A stretch of 64,000 nucleotides of DNA, taken from the NCBI RefSeq assembly GCF_002836945.1, contig NZ_NIJM01000024.1, positions 1 through 64,000 of the forward strand. The letters run 5' to 3'. The notes beneath the pieces were generated by a model. That model saw only the letters and a list, made by a program, of their open reading frames with translations, ran no database searches and was not told where the DNA came from. Made by a program: the position numbers and the translations under genes. The stretch comes from Shewanella chilikensis (GTDB lineage Bacteria > Pseudomonadota > Gammaproteobacteria > Enterobacterales > Shewanellaceae). Below are positions 10,251 through 60,154 of the stretch, piece after piece. Numbering within the stretch: the first letter of the stretch is position 1; every line of letters begins with the position of its first letter.

Positions 10251-11303
10251 TCAGGGATGGCGTAAACGGACTTCTGCCAAAATCGGTGTATGGTCGCTCG
10301 CCTGGGCATCCAGTTCAAACTGCGGCCGCAGCAGATGCCTGTCATAAACCCGGTAATCTGCCACTTCTGCCAAACTATGCTGACTGCGGGCATCAAACTC
10401 CTGACTCAACAACAGATAGTCGACCACACTGCCTTGAGAACCATGAAAATGGGTCACGGGGCGAGTCACTGTCACTTGCTCGCCACTTTGCTCAGAGGCT
10501 TCTCGCCAGAGCTGCCAGGCGTCAAACAGTTGAAAATGCGCCAGCTGCAGTTTCAGCCTTTCATCTGGCAGGCCGTGAAGGCCCGCAGCGCGAATATCCC
10601 CGTTATAGAGCTGCCCGGCACCCACCAACAGGCCCTTGAGTTCACTGGAATCTATGCCGGCGTTGAAATCCCCCATCAGCACCACAGCATTGCCGCTTTG
10701 CCGGCGCCGCTTGAGTATCGCCTGATACAACAACATGGCCTCACTGCCACGCTGCAAAGTGGCTGACCATCGGCCCAGCGCACTCTCGGCCAGCAGCCCG
10801 GCGGCACCTTGCAACTCGACCGCGCCCTTGGGCAACTTGTTGCGAGGTGATTTGAAATGCACCACGTAAGTATCACAGTGGCCTATCCCCGGCAGCATCA
10901 AGGTGGCTCGCAGTATCTGGCGACTACTTTGAAACTCTTCCTTGAGTCCAAGTGAAAATGCCAGTTCGCTATCCAGCTCCACCGCCGCCAAGGAAACAAT
11001 CGGAAAACGGCTTGCCAGTGCCACCACACTCTTGCGGGCAACAAAGCCTTCTATGACCGGCGAATCTACCAGCGCAAAGTGGGCAAGACCGGCAGCCTGA
11101 CACAATTCGCGTAGCGGCTCGGGGCTGAATAACTCCTGCCAGCCCACCAGATCTGGCTGCGCCTGCTGCAGCCAGCGGACTGTCCAGTCGCACTTTTGTT
11201 GCCACTGCCCTTGGGTATAGATGTTGTTGAACTCATGAAACGCCAGCGGCGGCATGGCAAAATTGAACAGATTCAGACTCGCGATGCGGATATTGGAAGA
11301 CAT
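10251..11303 (-). CDS. endonuclease/exonuclease/phosphatase-fold protein
   Basis: Member of the EEP superfamily (DNase I, exonuclease III and inositol-phosphatase fold), 350 residues from ATG 11303. Visible motifs are the N-terminal ASLNLFNF (metal-site Asn), WQEL (catalytic Glu), LMGDFNA (Asp/Asn pair) and the C-terminal ASDHTPI (catalytic Asp-His), all in the expected order. No signal peptide is seen with this start. Whether the substrate is DNA, RNA or a phosphodiester lipid or sugar cannot be told. The in-frame extension to 11393 is probably not used. Confidence 0.8.
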   Translation of the reverse strand: MSSNIRIASLNLFNFAMPPLAFHEFNNIYTQGQWQQKCDWTVRWLQQAQPDLVGWQELFSPEPLRELCQAAGLAHFALVDSPVIEGFVARKSVVALASRFPIVSLAAVELDSELAFSLGLKEEFQSSRQILRATLMLPGIGHCDTYVVHFKSPRNKLPKGAVELQGAAGLLAESALGRWSATLQRGSEAMLLYQAILKRRRQSGNAVVLMGDFNAGIDSSELKGLLVGAGQLYNGDIRAAGLHGLPDERLKLQLAHFQLFDAWQLWREASEQSGEQVTVTRPVTHFHGSQGSVVDYLLLSQEFDARSQHSLAEVADYRVYDRHLLRPQFELDAQASDHTPILAEVRLRHP

Positions 11304-11507
11304 GAAAAGCGCTGCGGCTCCGGTAACCCTGCTGAGTAATAGTGTTGATATTAAGCCGCTGCTGAGATTTGTCCAATAGCACACCAAAAACAACCTTCCG
11401 GCTACCCATTACCCCCCAACAGCGCCCAATAGCCCAACAAATAAGCAACATAAAGCCGCTGTTTGTGGCTAAAAAAACCTGTTTGACAGGCTTTTTCGAT
11501 CTCCCGC

Positions 11508-11535
11508 TTGACTTGTTTGGTTTCGACCATACAAT
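11508..11535 (+). promoter_or_regulatory. sigma-70-type promoter of the outer-membrane protein/mgtE operon
   Basis: A TTGACT -35 element (11508-11513) and a TACAAT -10 element (11530-11535) are 16 bases apart. The predicted start near 11542 would give a leader of about 318 nucleotides before the first structural gene. Confidence 0.6.
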
Positions 11536-11541
11536 CGCCGC

Positions 11542-11859
11542 TTAATTAACCATACGGAGACCCACTGTGGACACACACATAGGTGACAGTAGATGCCCTG
11601 TCAGTCAGACAGGATTATTTGCCCGGCACTAGTCTGCAGCTTCGCAAACTACTGCCAGGACTGGCAGTAGCGTATTAAAGAATCCCTTTTTCCGTTACTC
11701 CCCATAAAAACCTTGTTGAGCTTTACATGCATACGCATGCCGCAGTGTTCTCCTGTGGCTGCAAACTAATGCATCCATAAAGGTTTTTTACTTAGGACAG
11801 CCTTGCTGCCGCTGCCCCATCTACGACCTTGAGTGTTCCCCCACACAGGAGGAACAAGC
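11542..11859 (+). promoter_or_regulatory. long structured 5' leader upstream of outer-membrane protein and mgtE
   Basis: About 318 nucleotides between a good promoter and the first structural gene hold several hairpins. These are a 6-bp stem at 11597-11613, a 10-bp perfect stem at 11649-11670, and a long hairpin in which 11706-11714 pairs with 11780-11789, with nested ATGCAT/ATGCAT and GCAG/CTGC pairings. The last ends in a T-run, as an intrinsic terminator would. I could not match it to the M-box (ykoK), mgtA or yybP-ykoY riboswitches by eye. Because the operon encodes an MgtE magnesium channel, ion-responsive control is plausible but inferred. Confidence 0.45.
11567..11632 (+). CDS. possible 21-residue leader peptide of the mgtE operon
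   Basis: A short frame starts at GTG 11567, 25 bases after the predicted transcription start. It has ACGGAGA eight bases upstream and stops with TAG at 11630-11632. It would encode 21 residues beginning MDTHIGDSRCPV. Its end precedes a strong hairpin at 11649-11670. The position recalls leader peptides of magnesium-transporter genes (mgtL of enteric mgtA), but the sequence is unrelated to MgtL and no experimental support is available. Confidence 0.3.
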   Translation: MDTHIGDSRCPVSQTGLFARH

Positions 11860-12510
11860 ATGAAACTCAGATATACCAATACGCTGCTGCTGGGCGGCCT
11901 GCTCTGGCATGGACAACTGCATGCCGGCATTCAGTTGCTGGAAGATCCCGATATTGCCGCTGCCACAGAACTCGCTGTCGACTGGCAACGACAAGCGGGC
12001 AACAACGGCTTTGCCCTGGGGCTCAACCAAGCCGTCTTTGGCGGCGAATTGGCGCTGGAACTGCAAACAGACGACCGGGATGCCCCCTGGGACAGACATG
12101 AGAGCCGCGGCTGGCAACTCGGCTACAAACAACCGCTGGCCACAAACGGCTTATCTCAGACTCTGGCACTGGAGCTGGGGCGTCATCACAGAGATGGCTG
12201 GCAGGGTCACGCCCTGGTCAGTAGCGATCTGCCGATTGCCACCCAGGGCTTCTTTGTGCGCAACAACTTAGGGCTGAGCCTGGAGTCGGGGGAAGGTCCG
12301 GCAATGATTTTTGGCCTGGGAGCCGGCTTCAAAGTTCAGCAGCAAACTCTGCTGTTTGAAAACCAGTATCTGGGCCAAGGCGACTATGGCTACCAGCTAC
12401 TCTGGCAAAACCAACCCAACGCCCATTGGCAGTGGCAATTGGGTTATGGCAATCAGTATGGCGGTGGCGCCCGCCAATTTGGCGCCGGCATACAATTTTT
12501 CTTTTCTTGA
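11860..12510 (+). CDS. small outer-membrane beta-barrel-like protein
   Basis: Exported protein of 216 residues that starts at ATG 11860 directly after AGGAGGAACAAGC, an excellent ribosome-binding site. Residues 1-21 are a signal peptide ending LHA. The mature part has alternating polar/aromatic strands (FGGELALELQ, YGYQLLWQN, WQWQLGYGNQYGGG) and ends in FGAGIQFFFS, with a terminal aromatic cluster as in outer-membrane barrels. I recognise no named family. It lies 22 bases ahead of mgtE and shares its leader, so it may help cations reach or cross the outer membrane, or be an envelope sensor; both ideas are inference. Confidence 0.6.
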   Translation: MKLRYTNTLLLGGLLWHGQLHAGIQLLEDPDIAAATELAVDWQRQAGNNGFALGLNQAVFGGELALELQTDDRDAPWDRHESRGWQLGYKQPLATNGLSQTLALELGRHHRDGWQGHALVSSDLPIATQGFFVRNNLGLSLESGEGPAMIFGLGAGFKVQQQTLLFENQYLGQGDYGYQLLWQNQPNAHWQWQLGYGNQYGGGARQFGAGIQFFFS

Positions 12511-12532: not shown

Positions 12533-13888
12533 ATGAACAGCAACAACATCATACTCAACCTGCACCTTATTCTGGCCAACAAAGACGCCAAGGCGATGCA
12601 GATGCTGGCATCCGAGCTGCATCCGGCGGACATAGCCGCCGTACTGCCGACCTTCGACAGCCAGCAAACGGCCTCAATACTGACCCTGTGCCAGCCCAAA
12701 ACCGCGGCGGCGCTGCTGCGGTATCTACCCCATCAGCAGCAAAAGCTGCTGGCGGAAGCACTGGATCATCAAACCCTTGGGAAAATTATCATGGAGATGG
12801 CGGCAGACGAGCGCGCCGACCTCTATAACGAGTTGGATGTTGAGCAGCAAGCGCTGCTGCTACCCACTCTGGCCAAGGCGGAGCGCGAGGATATGCGTAC
12901 CCTGGCGGCCTATGATGACTCCAAGGTTGGCTCCATTATGACCTCTGACTATGCCCTGCTGCGGGTCAATCACACCGCGGAAGAGGCTATAGACAGCCTG
13001 AGGAAAGTTGCCGCAGATCTGGAAACCATCTACCAGACCTATGTGGTGGATGAGCGCGGACGCCTGATAGGCAATGTGTCGCTGCGTCAGCTCATCATCG
13101 CGCCCCCCAAGGCATTGGTGAAAGACTTTATGAAAGAGCAGACCATAGCCATAGAAGCGGAAGCCTTCAAAGAAGAAGCGGCGCAGATGATAGCCCACTA
13201 TGATCTGCTGGCGCTGCCTGTGGTCAACGGCAAAGACCAACTGGTCGGCATAGTCACTTATGATGATGCCATGGATGTGGCCAGTGCCCAGGCCGATGCC
13301 GAATTCAACAAACACGGCGCCGTGGGGCAGTTGGCCTGCTCTTTCAAGGAAGCCAGTATTGGCATGCTCTATCGTAAGCGAGTCTTTTGGCTGGTGTTGC
13401 TGGTGTTCGGCAATGTGTTGTCCGGCACTGGGATCGCCTACTTTGAAGATACCATTACAGCTTATGTTGCTCTGGTATTCTTCTTGCCACTGCTCATCGG
13501 CAGCAGCGGCAACGCCGGTTCACAGTCTGCCACCTTAATGGTCAGGGCTCTGGCCACCGGGGAGGTCGTCCTCAAAGATTGGCTGTCGCTACTGGCCAAA
13601 GAGCTGCTTGTGGCCGGCTTGCTGGGTGCCACCATGGCCATTGCGGTATTTACCCTGGGTTATTGGCGCGGCGGCGATATCGCCCTGGTGGTCGCCCTGA
13701 CTATGCAACTTGTGGTGATTATCGGCAGCCTGATAGGCATGTCCCTGCCCTTCTTGCTGAGTAAGTTCAAGCTGGATCCAGCGTCGGCCAGCGCGCCGCT
13801 GGTGACTTCGATAGCCGATATCATAGGTGTCATCGTCTACTTCAATGTCGCCACCGCTATTTTGGATTTTCCGCCTGTCAGTGGTTAA
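12533..13888 (+). CDS. mgtE: MgtE-type magnesium channel/transporter (first copy)
   Basis: Magnesium channel of 451 residues. The N domain (about 1-125) is superhelical. Two CBS domains follow (about 130-250, with VGSIMTSDYALLRVN and LVGIVTYDDAMD) and act as the cytoplasmic magnesium sensor in this family. Five membrane helices occupy about 280-445, with the pore motif LIGSSGNAGSQSATLMVRALATG. It lies 22 bases after the outer-membrane protein gene and behind the long leader at 11542-11859. A second, divergent MgtE is encoded at 58790-60154. Confidence 0.92.
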   Translation: MNSNNIILNLHLILANKDAKAMQMLASELHPADIAAVLPTFDSQQTASILTLCQPKTAAALLRYLPHQQQKLLAEALDHQTLGKIIMEMAADERADLYNELDVEQQALLLPTLAKAEREDMRTLAAYDDSKVGSIMTSDYALLRVNHTAEEAIDSLRKVAADLETIYQTYVVDERGRLIGNVSLRQLIIAPPKALVKDFMKEQTIAIEAEAFKEEAAQMIAHYDLLALPVVNGKDQLVGIVTYDDAMDVASAQADAEFNKHGAVGQLACSFKEASIGMLYRKRVFWLVLLVFGNVLSGTGIAYFEDTITAYVALVFFLPLLIGSSGNAGSQSATLMVRALATGEVVLKDWLSLLAKELLVAGLLGATMAIAVFTLGYWRGGDIALVVALTMQLVVIIGSLIGMSLPFLLSKFKLDPASASAPLVTSIADIIGVIVYFNVATAILDFPPVSG

Positions 13889-58789: not shown

Positions 58790-60154
58790 ATGCCAATAGA
58801 AGCGCTCGACCAAGAGCTGACAGAACAACGTCTTACTCAACTAAACCAAGCTCTTGGCAGTGGTATGTTCGTGCATGTGCGCGACATGCTGCAGCGAATG
58901 ACGGCTTCGGATATCGCCTTTATTCTCGAATCTTCACCGCCACGTACCCGTCAGGTACTCTGGCAACTGGTGGATCAGGAACAGAGCGGTGAGATCCTCG
59001 AAGAGCTGGGTGAAGATATGAAAGACCAGCTGATCAGCCTGATGAGTCCTGAGCGTTTGGCACGAGCGACCGCGGGTATGGATACCGATGATCTGGCCTA
59101 CGTGCTGCGAAGCCTGCCGGATACACTCTACAAACAGGTACTGCACTCCATGAGTGCCCAAGACAGGGCCAGGGTCGAACAGGCGCTCTCCTATCCGGAA
59201 GACAGCGCCGGTAGTCTGATGAATACAGATACCGTGACCCTGAGGCCGGACGTCAACGTCGATGTGGTGCTGCGTTATCTGCGCCAAAGGGGCGAGCTGC
59301 CCGAAGCCACTGATACCCTCTATGTGGTGGACAGGCGCGATATTTTGCTCGGTGGCGTTAAGCTCTCCACCCTACTGACCTGTAACCCCACCGCCGGGAT
59401 CCGCAGCATAATGGATCCCGAGCTTGAGAGCATTCCCGTCACCATGCCGGACAATGAAGTGGCCCAGCTGTTTGAGCGTCACGACTGGGTTTCGGCGCCA
59501 GTGGTCGACAGTGAAGGCCATCTGCTTGGGCGGATCACCATTGATGATGTGGTGGACGTTATCCGAGAAGACGCCGAACACTCCATGATGGGTATGGCGG
59601 GGATGGACGATGATGAAGACACCTTCGGCCCTGTGTTCAAGAGTGCCTTTCGCCGCTCTTTGTGGCTGACCTTCAACCTGTTTGCCGCCTTGTTGGCCGC
59701 CTCGGTCAGCAATATGTTTGAAGGCACGTTGGAAAAATTTGCCACCATAGCGATTCTGATGACCATAGTGCCCAGCATGGGCGGCGTTGCCGGTAACCAG
59801 ACTCTGGCGCTGGTGATCCGCGGTATCGCCCTCGGCCACATAGGTCAGAGCAACTCCCGCTGGCTTATCGGCAAGGAGTTGGCCATCGGCTTTCTCAATG
59901 GCCTGTTGTGGTCGGCGCTGGTATTCACTGCCGTGTGGATCTGGAAAGGCGATCTGGCACTCGGCGCCCTTATTGGCGGTGCCATGTTAATCAATATGAC
60001 GGTAGCCGGTCTCGCCGGAGCCAGCATCCCTTTAATACTGAAAAAGCTCAATGTGGATCCTGCATTGGCCGGTGGCATGGTGCTGACCACAGTGACAGAT
60101 GTAATAGGCCTGTTCGCCTTCCTGGGGTTGGCGACTCTAGTATTAATGGGCTGA
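58790..60154 (+). CDS. mgtE: MgtE-type magnesium channel/transporter (second copy)
   Basis: Magnesium channel of 454 residues from ATG 58790, preceded by CAGGGGGA. N domain (about 1-130), two CBS domains (about 140-265, with DSAGSLMNTDTVTL and LLGRITIDDVVD), and five membrane helices (about 285-450) with the pore motif PSMGGVAGNQTLALVIRGIALG. The linkage to ptsO is common in related genera. It differs from the first copy in sequence and has no long structured leader. The 3' end carries a tandem duplication (60140-60181). Confidence 0.93.
   Translation: MPIEALDQELTEQRLTQLNQALGSGMFVHVRDMLQRMTASDIAFILESSPPRTRQVLWQLVDQEQSGEILEELGEDMKDQLISLMSPERLARATAGMDTDDLAYVLRSLPDTLYKQVLHSMSAQDRARVEQALSYPEDSAGSLMNTDTVTLRPDVNVDVVLRYLRQRGELPEATDTLYVVDRRDILLGGVKLSTLLTCNPTAGIRSIMDPELESIPVTMPDNEVAQLFERHDWVSAPVVDSEGHLLGRITIDDVVDVIREDAEHSMMGMAGMDDDEDTFGPVFKSAFRRSLWLTFNLFAALLAASVSNMFEGTLEKFATIAILMTIVPSMGGVAGNQTLALVIRGIALGHIGQSNSRWLIGKELAIGFLNGLLWSALVFTAVWIWKGDLALGALIGGAMLINMTVAGLAGASIPLILKKLNVDPALAGGMVLTTVTDVIGLFAFLGLATLVLMG

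Follow-up and report, generated by a model that had tools for sequence, protein, structure and literature searches.

What does a long, structured leader RNA do in front of a magnesium channel operon? The window – the whole 64,000-nucleotide stretch of the Shewanella chilikensis contig NZ_NIJM01000024.1 analyzed here – contains an untranslated leader of ~320 bases ahead of a gene for a 216 amino acid protein, which is followed by mgtE. An original prediction, made from these letters, proposed that the leader might be a new cation- or translation-responsive element and pointed to a strong promoter, a magnesium channel gene, a small frame, and two hairpins. We examined the leader, its operon, and its relatives in other genomes.

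A structured leader precedes an omp–mgtE operon

The operon is organized as follows:

11508–11535, + strand: sigma-70-type promoter, TTGACT-16-TACAAT, agreeing with the consensus at 10 of 12 positions
11860–12510, + strand: first gene (omp), 216 amino acids, outer-membrane-protein-like, no Pfam family
12533–13888, + strand: mgtE, divalent cation channel, with Pfam MgtE, MgtE_N, and CBS matches

The promoter and the channel gene were both as predicted: the -35 sequence TTGACTT is unchanged in all 18 aligned leaders, with a -10 sequence of the same type, and the three Pfam matches identify mgtE. The MgtE family consists chiefly of Mg2+ channels. The 216 amino acid protein begins with what reads as a signal-peptide-like sequence, and its structure model was too poor for use (mean pLDDT 33.5). 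The leader folds better than expected from its composition, with a z score of -3.9 and none of 100 shuffled sequences folding as well.

The leader matches no Rfam family

To our knowledge, Rfam holds only two classes of Mg2+-sensing leader. Neither was detected: the M-box (RF00380) and Magnesium-II (RF01056) models found nothing in the window or elsewhere in the genome, with controls from Bacillus subtilis and Lactococcus lactis for the former and from Escherichia coli for the latter all being recovered. Searching the 64,000 bases of the window with Rfam 15 returned 0 matches at the gathering score, including for yybP-ykoY (RF00080) and the other ion riboswitches, and relaxing the threshold to E values up to 10 added nothing meaningful, for these or any other family, between 11300 and 12000. 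The suggestion that the leader fits no known riboswitch class thus held at the gathering score, and the covariance-model check proposed with it (M-box, mgtA leader, yybP-ykoY) gave no match to any of the three. Judged by titles and the openings of abstracts, we found no literature description of a Shewanella leader before mgtE.

An 86-nucleotide core is under RNA-level constraint

Aligning the leader with its relatives delimited a conserved core, from which we built a covariance model (R1). The core and its helices are:

11553–11638, + strand: conserved RNA core, 86 nt, model R1
11566–11572, + strand: P1 5' strand, TGTGGAC, pairing with 11632–11638
11632–11638, + strand: P1 3' strand, GTCTGCA, pairing with 11566–11572
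11583–11585, + strand: P2 5' strand, GTG, pairing with 11620–11622
11620–11622, + strand: P2 3' strand, pairing with 11583–11585
11597–11613, + strand: P3 hairpin, CCTGTC-loop-GACAGG, with an invariant stem and a variable loop

Between the window and the other clades, identity is 80–81% in the core, 64–66% in mgtE DNA, 23–30% in the first gene's protein, and 46–50% in the rest of the leader after P4, a hairpin described below. Because the core is kept better than the channel gene's DNA, the first protein, and the remaining leader, these comparisons argue strongly for constraint on the core at the level of RNA.

P1 closes the core and P2 is its inner helix. All 16 pairs of P1, P2, and P3 are kept across all eight distinct cores, and slid versions of the helices, used as a control for the 16-pair fold, pair in only 27–50%. 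Covariation among the Shewanella homologues was seen at one P1 pair, where G-C is doubly replaced by A-U, and at one P2 pair, where C-G, U-G, and U-A occur; the resulting score was reached by only 6 of 500 shuffles. Covariation support consists of these two doubly changed pairs, and the small number of independent changes is its main limit. All eight cores also accommodate a rival 3-bp pairing for P2, without double changes, and the invariance of the P3 stem makes it uninformative either way. As in a riboswitch, a conserved aptamer-like fold with covariation, at the two doubly changed pairs, lies upstream of a gene, and many unpaired bases of the core are invariant, in short stretches. We conclude that the leader is very probably a conserved cis-regulatory RNA.

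Other pairings within the core were also observed. Two GACAG copies (11585–11589 and 11608–11612) can each pair with CTGTC at 11598–11602 in all eight cores; a toggle of GACAG and CUGUC against P3 is possible on these complementarities, which are nearly invariant. A pseudoknot between UAG-A-UGC and GCACUA pairs in 95.8% of cells, breaks in two of the eight cores, and shows no covariation.

A small open frame overlaps the core

The predicted 21-codon frame with its own ribosome-binding sequence is present and lies within the core:

11556–11559, + strand: GGAG ribosome-binding sequence, invariant in all copies
11567–11632, + strand: small frame, GTG start at 11567, 21 codons and a TAG stop (11630–11632); 19 codons in other clades

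The GGAG, its 7-nt spacer, and the GTG are all invariant, none of the 21 loci examined interrupts the frame, and the position of the stop varies by no more than 6 nt, staying adjacent to a strand of the alternative hairpin described below. The expected conservation of a leader peptide was not found. Across seven haplotypes, the encoded amino acid differs in 8 of 19 codon columns, and codon positions 1, 2, and 3 contain 6, 4, and 6 variable bases; because residues change in so many columns and variation is spread evenly over the codon positions, the peptide is not conserved as such, and the pattern of substitution fits constraint on the RNA rather than on the peptide. The small peptides contain one proline and one or two acidic residues.

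Translation of a frame that is open in every copy may nonetheless matter. P1 contains the start codon, and the stop codon falls in or next to the strand that P1 shares with the alternative hairpin, so that ribosomes on the frame would be expected to disturb the fold. We rejected a second small frame, starting at ATG 11728, that is His/Cys-rich and ends at the terminator-like hairpin: even close relatives fail to preserve its codons and stop.

Two mutually exclusive predicted folds follow from the core

Downstream of the core, two hairpins compete for the same sequence:

11649–11670, + strand: P4 hairpin, CTACTGCCA-GGAC-TGGCAGTAG, 9 bp, with arms at 11649–11657 and 11662–11670
11625–11656, + strand: alternative hairpin (ALT), in which the core 3' side (11625–11637) pairs with 11644–11656, including the P4 5' arm

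P4 corresponds to a predicted 10-bp perfect hairpin. The inverted repeat is indeed 10 bp long; as RNA it forms 9 bp closed by a GGAC loop, because a tenth pair would leave a loop of 2 nt. P4 follows the core in all clades, with at most 0.2% of shuffles as good. Because ALT recruits the P4 5' arm as well as the core's 3' side, it excludes P1 and P4. Shuffled arms matched ALT in at most 1.3% of cases for nine of 10 distinct sequences and in 5.2% for the remaining one. In all four clades, ALT is also present when the full leader is folded as a consensus. Computed energies of P1 plus P4 and of ALT lie within about 1–6 kcal/mol of each other in all 20 leaders compared; when folding stops at the C-rich tract, ALT is favored in the window clade and P1 plus P4 in the other clades. 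The two mutually exclusive folds that mark Magnesium-II leaders thus have a computed analogue here.

A C-rich stretch and a terminator-like hairpin precede the first gene

Two candidate termination elements follow P4:

11682–11742, + strand: C-rich, G-poor stretch, candidate Rho loading site by composition, not localized relative to shuffles
11721–11789, + strand: terminator-like branched hairpin (11721–11783) followed by TTTTTT (11784–11789); the weakest element

After P4, all 20 leaders contain 15–23 C versus 5–8 G per 60 nt. Such an excess is found in 0.02–0.2% of background 60-nt windows for the other clades and in 1.2% for the window's own leader. It is not localized relative to dinucleotide shuffles in five of six leaders, the exception being L051 of clade B (1%). 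A hairpin that would mask the C-rich stretch was found for the window clade only (1.7–3.9% of shuffles as good) and is not supported in other clades (20–50%).

The predicted terminator-like hairpin fared less well than the promoter and the small frame. A branched hairpin followed by a T run is present, but it is weak: a simple terminator scan missed it, and among 60 dinucleotide shuffles of the window leader 5% did equally well. Scoring the hairpin together with the T run against 60 shuffles gave 5%, 1.7%, and 0% for L054, L111, and L116, which represent the window clade and the C clades; 15% of shuffles matched the hairpin of L122, also from the window's clade. Under a strict test in clade B, L108 had no such hairpin and 13% of shuffles were as good as that of L051. 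Intrinsic termination downstream is therefore possible in the window and C clades and less so in clade B.

The leader co-occurs with one type of mgtE within Shewanella

DNA searches recovered the leader from 6 of 60 relatives and from 18 of 117 genomes of the genus, and the R1 model found it in 19 of 129 Shewanella genomes, with one copy per genome. Named carriers include Shewanella sp. ANA-3, S. decolorationis, and S. xiamenensis. R1 matched 19 of 152 genomes in the family (two further weak matches, with E about 0.9 and 19.7 bits, were not counted), 4 of 394 in the order, all four Shewanella, and 1 of 369 in the class, the window's own; the large searches used stricter filters that may lose weak matches, including those of any distant relatives. 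A pattern scan over a collection with one genome for each of 84,980 species returned 14 loci, 10 of which match R1 strongly; all 10 are Shewanella. One further match, in Anaerospora (L059, 24.6 bits), was rejected as chance, as it lies antisense inside a gene for a 646 amino acid protein – which reads as a sigma-54-type regulator – and was brought in by the same pattern. No convincing copy of the core was found outside Shewanella in the family, order, and class searches or the pattern scan, and restriction to the genus is the best reading of these sequence searches.

Of the 117 genus genomes, exactly the 18 leader carriers encode an MgtE at 67–100% identity to that of the leader-linked operon in the window, one of them (G134) being counted by a 75% match over 183 residues only; the next MgtE proteins listed in these genomes share 33% identity or less. 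MgtE relatives at 45–59% identity occur in other genera and families of the order. At the loci examined they have no convincing core, no recognizable relative of the first gene (tblastn, none below E 0.1), and, at the 20 loci searched, no Rfam match. The window also encodes a second MgtE-type gene (58895–60145, + strand; 26% identity to the leader-linked mgtE), and no R1 core precedes it; R1 has one match in the genome.

The leader as a possible magnesium-responsive attenuator

These features can be compared with enterobacterial leaders. One report describes the mgtA and corA leaders as having a small frame in stem A, pyrimidine-rich rut sequence flanking stem B, and a competing third stem, C; Rho ends transcription at high Mg2+ (PMC11552253). 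Both they and the Shewanella leader stand before a magnesium transporter and carry a small frame inside the first stem domain; in both, a second stem (here P4) is followed by pyrimidine-rich sequence, and an alternative hairpin excludes both stems. The Shewanella leader differs from RF01056 in having no sequence match and a different transporter family, and its Mg2+ and Rho responses are predicted ones; MgtL is rich in proline and acidic residues, and the Shewanella peptide has no such richness. We therefore propose that the Shewanella leader works like the mgtA and corA leaders yet lies outside their family, given the absence of both a sequence match and a proline-rich peptide.

M-box riboswitches occur before mgtE genes in other bacteria. 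The Shewanella leader has no match to RF00380, and its length and helices differ. Leaders of the yybP-ykoY class (RF00080) and other ion riboswitches likewise precede ion-transport genes, and the Shewanella leader matches none of them. Combinations of sensor, small frame, and Rho do occur: an M-box of Mycobacterium tuberculosis is reported to function together with a small frame and Rho (PMC12810186).

Our preferred reading, put forward tentatively, is a cis-acting attenuator for the omp–mgtE operon that operates on the pattern of mgtA and corA. An abundance of the ion – most likely Mg2+ – would let the core fold and P1 and P4 form; the C-rich stretch would then stay exposed and transcription would stop short of the first gene. 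Rho is a more likely agent of this stop than the weak hairpin downstream. If the ion ran short, or if something interfered with ribosomes on the small frame, ALT would form instead and polymerase would continue into omp–mgtE. Mg2+ is probably the signal, a reading drawn only from the downstream channel gene; like the ligand, we infer the role of Rho and the direction of control. Supporting the attenuator are the identity of the core, its 16 kept pairs, the co-occurrence of leader and mgtE, the competition of ALT with P1 plus P4, and the C-rich tract. It is weakened by the C excess not being localized in five of six leaders, by a masking helix confined to one clade, by a small peptide unlike MgtL, by the few independent changes in P1 and P2 and the rival P2 pairing, and by the clades differing in whether ALT or P1 is energetically favored.

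An unlikely alternative is a riboswitch whose core serves as an aptamer for a different divalent ion or for a small molecule and whose output is intrinsic termination at the downstream hairpin. An aptamer-like core closed by P1 with many invariant unpaired bases would suit it, as would a hairpin and T run that shuffles rarely equal in the window and C clades (5%, 1.7%, 0%), but the terminator is weak or absent in clade B (L108, L051) and poorly distinguished in L122, and MgtE is chiefly a Mg2+ channel family. It is more doubtful that a ribosome on the 19–21-codon frame, rather than an ion, chooses between P1/P4 and ALT, with the peptide or its codons being sensed. The invariant GGAG and GTG, the frame's openness in 21 of 21 loci, and its stably placed stop next to the ALT strand point that way; the amino acid changes in 8 of 19 columns and the even 6/4/6 spread speak against it, as do invariant bases between ribosome site and start that a plain start site would not need.

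Slightly less credence still goes to an mRNA operator that is bound by a regulatory protein or a small RNA and has no switch of its own: very highly conserved short unpaired stretches and a single copy per genome beside one operon are what such a site would show, yet it leaves unexplained why competing hairpins are kept in every clade. That the resemblance reflects chance, or mere shared ancestry and recent divergence without function, is very improbable. Restriction to one genus agrees with it, but it is contradicted by a core more conserved than its own operon's coding DNA and by a 3' flank that falls to 46–50%.

Returning to the attenuator, a broader proposition, which we regard as rather unlikely though worth stating, is that the leader represents a third natural class of Mg2+- or divalent-cation-sensing leader RNA, with no sequence relationship to the M-box or the mgtA leader, its stem-swap logic having evolved independently before an MgtE channel. 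The locus pairs a small frame with a stem swap in an 86-nt RNA kept better than its channel gene; if the attenuator reading is true, it would be a third case of a Mg2+-sensing leader and would independently test how magnesium is sensed by RNA and the decision passed on to Rho or a terminator. Carriers include ordinary laboratory strains, which leaves the leader open to testing.

The divergent neighbor (10251–11393, - strand) encodes an NLFNF...GQWQ-KC protein that is alike in every clade in which it can be seen, including loci L003–L020, which suggests that the omp–mgtE operon sits in an old, fixed place. Two carriers show altered genes behind the leader. In G030 (loci L120 and L002) a full-length first gene was not found; the long open frame begins late and spans 147 amino acids, which may reflect a broken gene or an assembly error. 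In G134 (L038) the mgtE match covers only residues 265–447, in a frame of 197 amino acids, possibly a broken gene, and the leader is intact.
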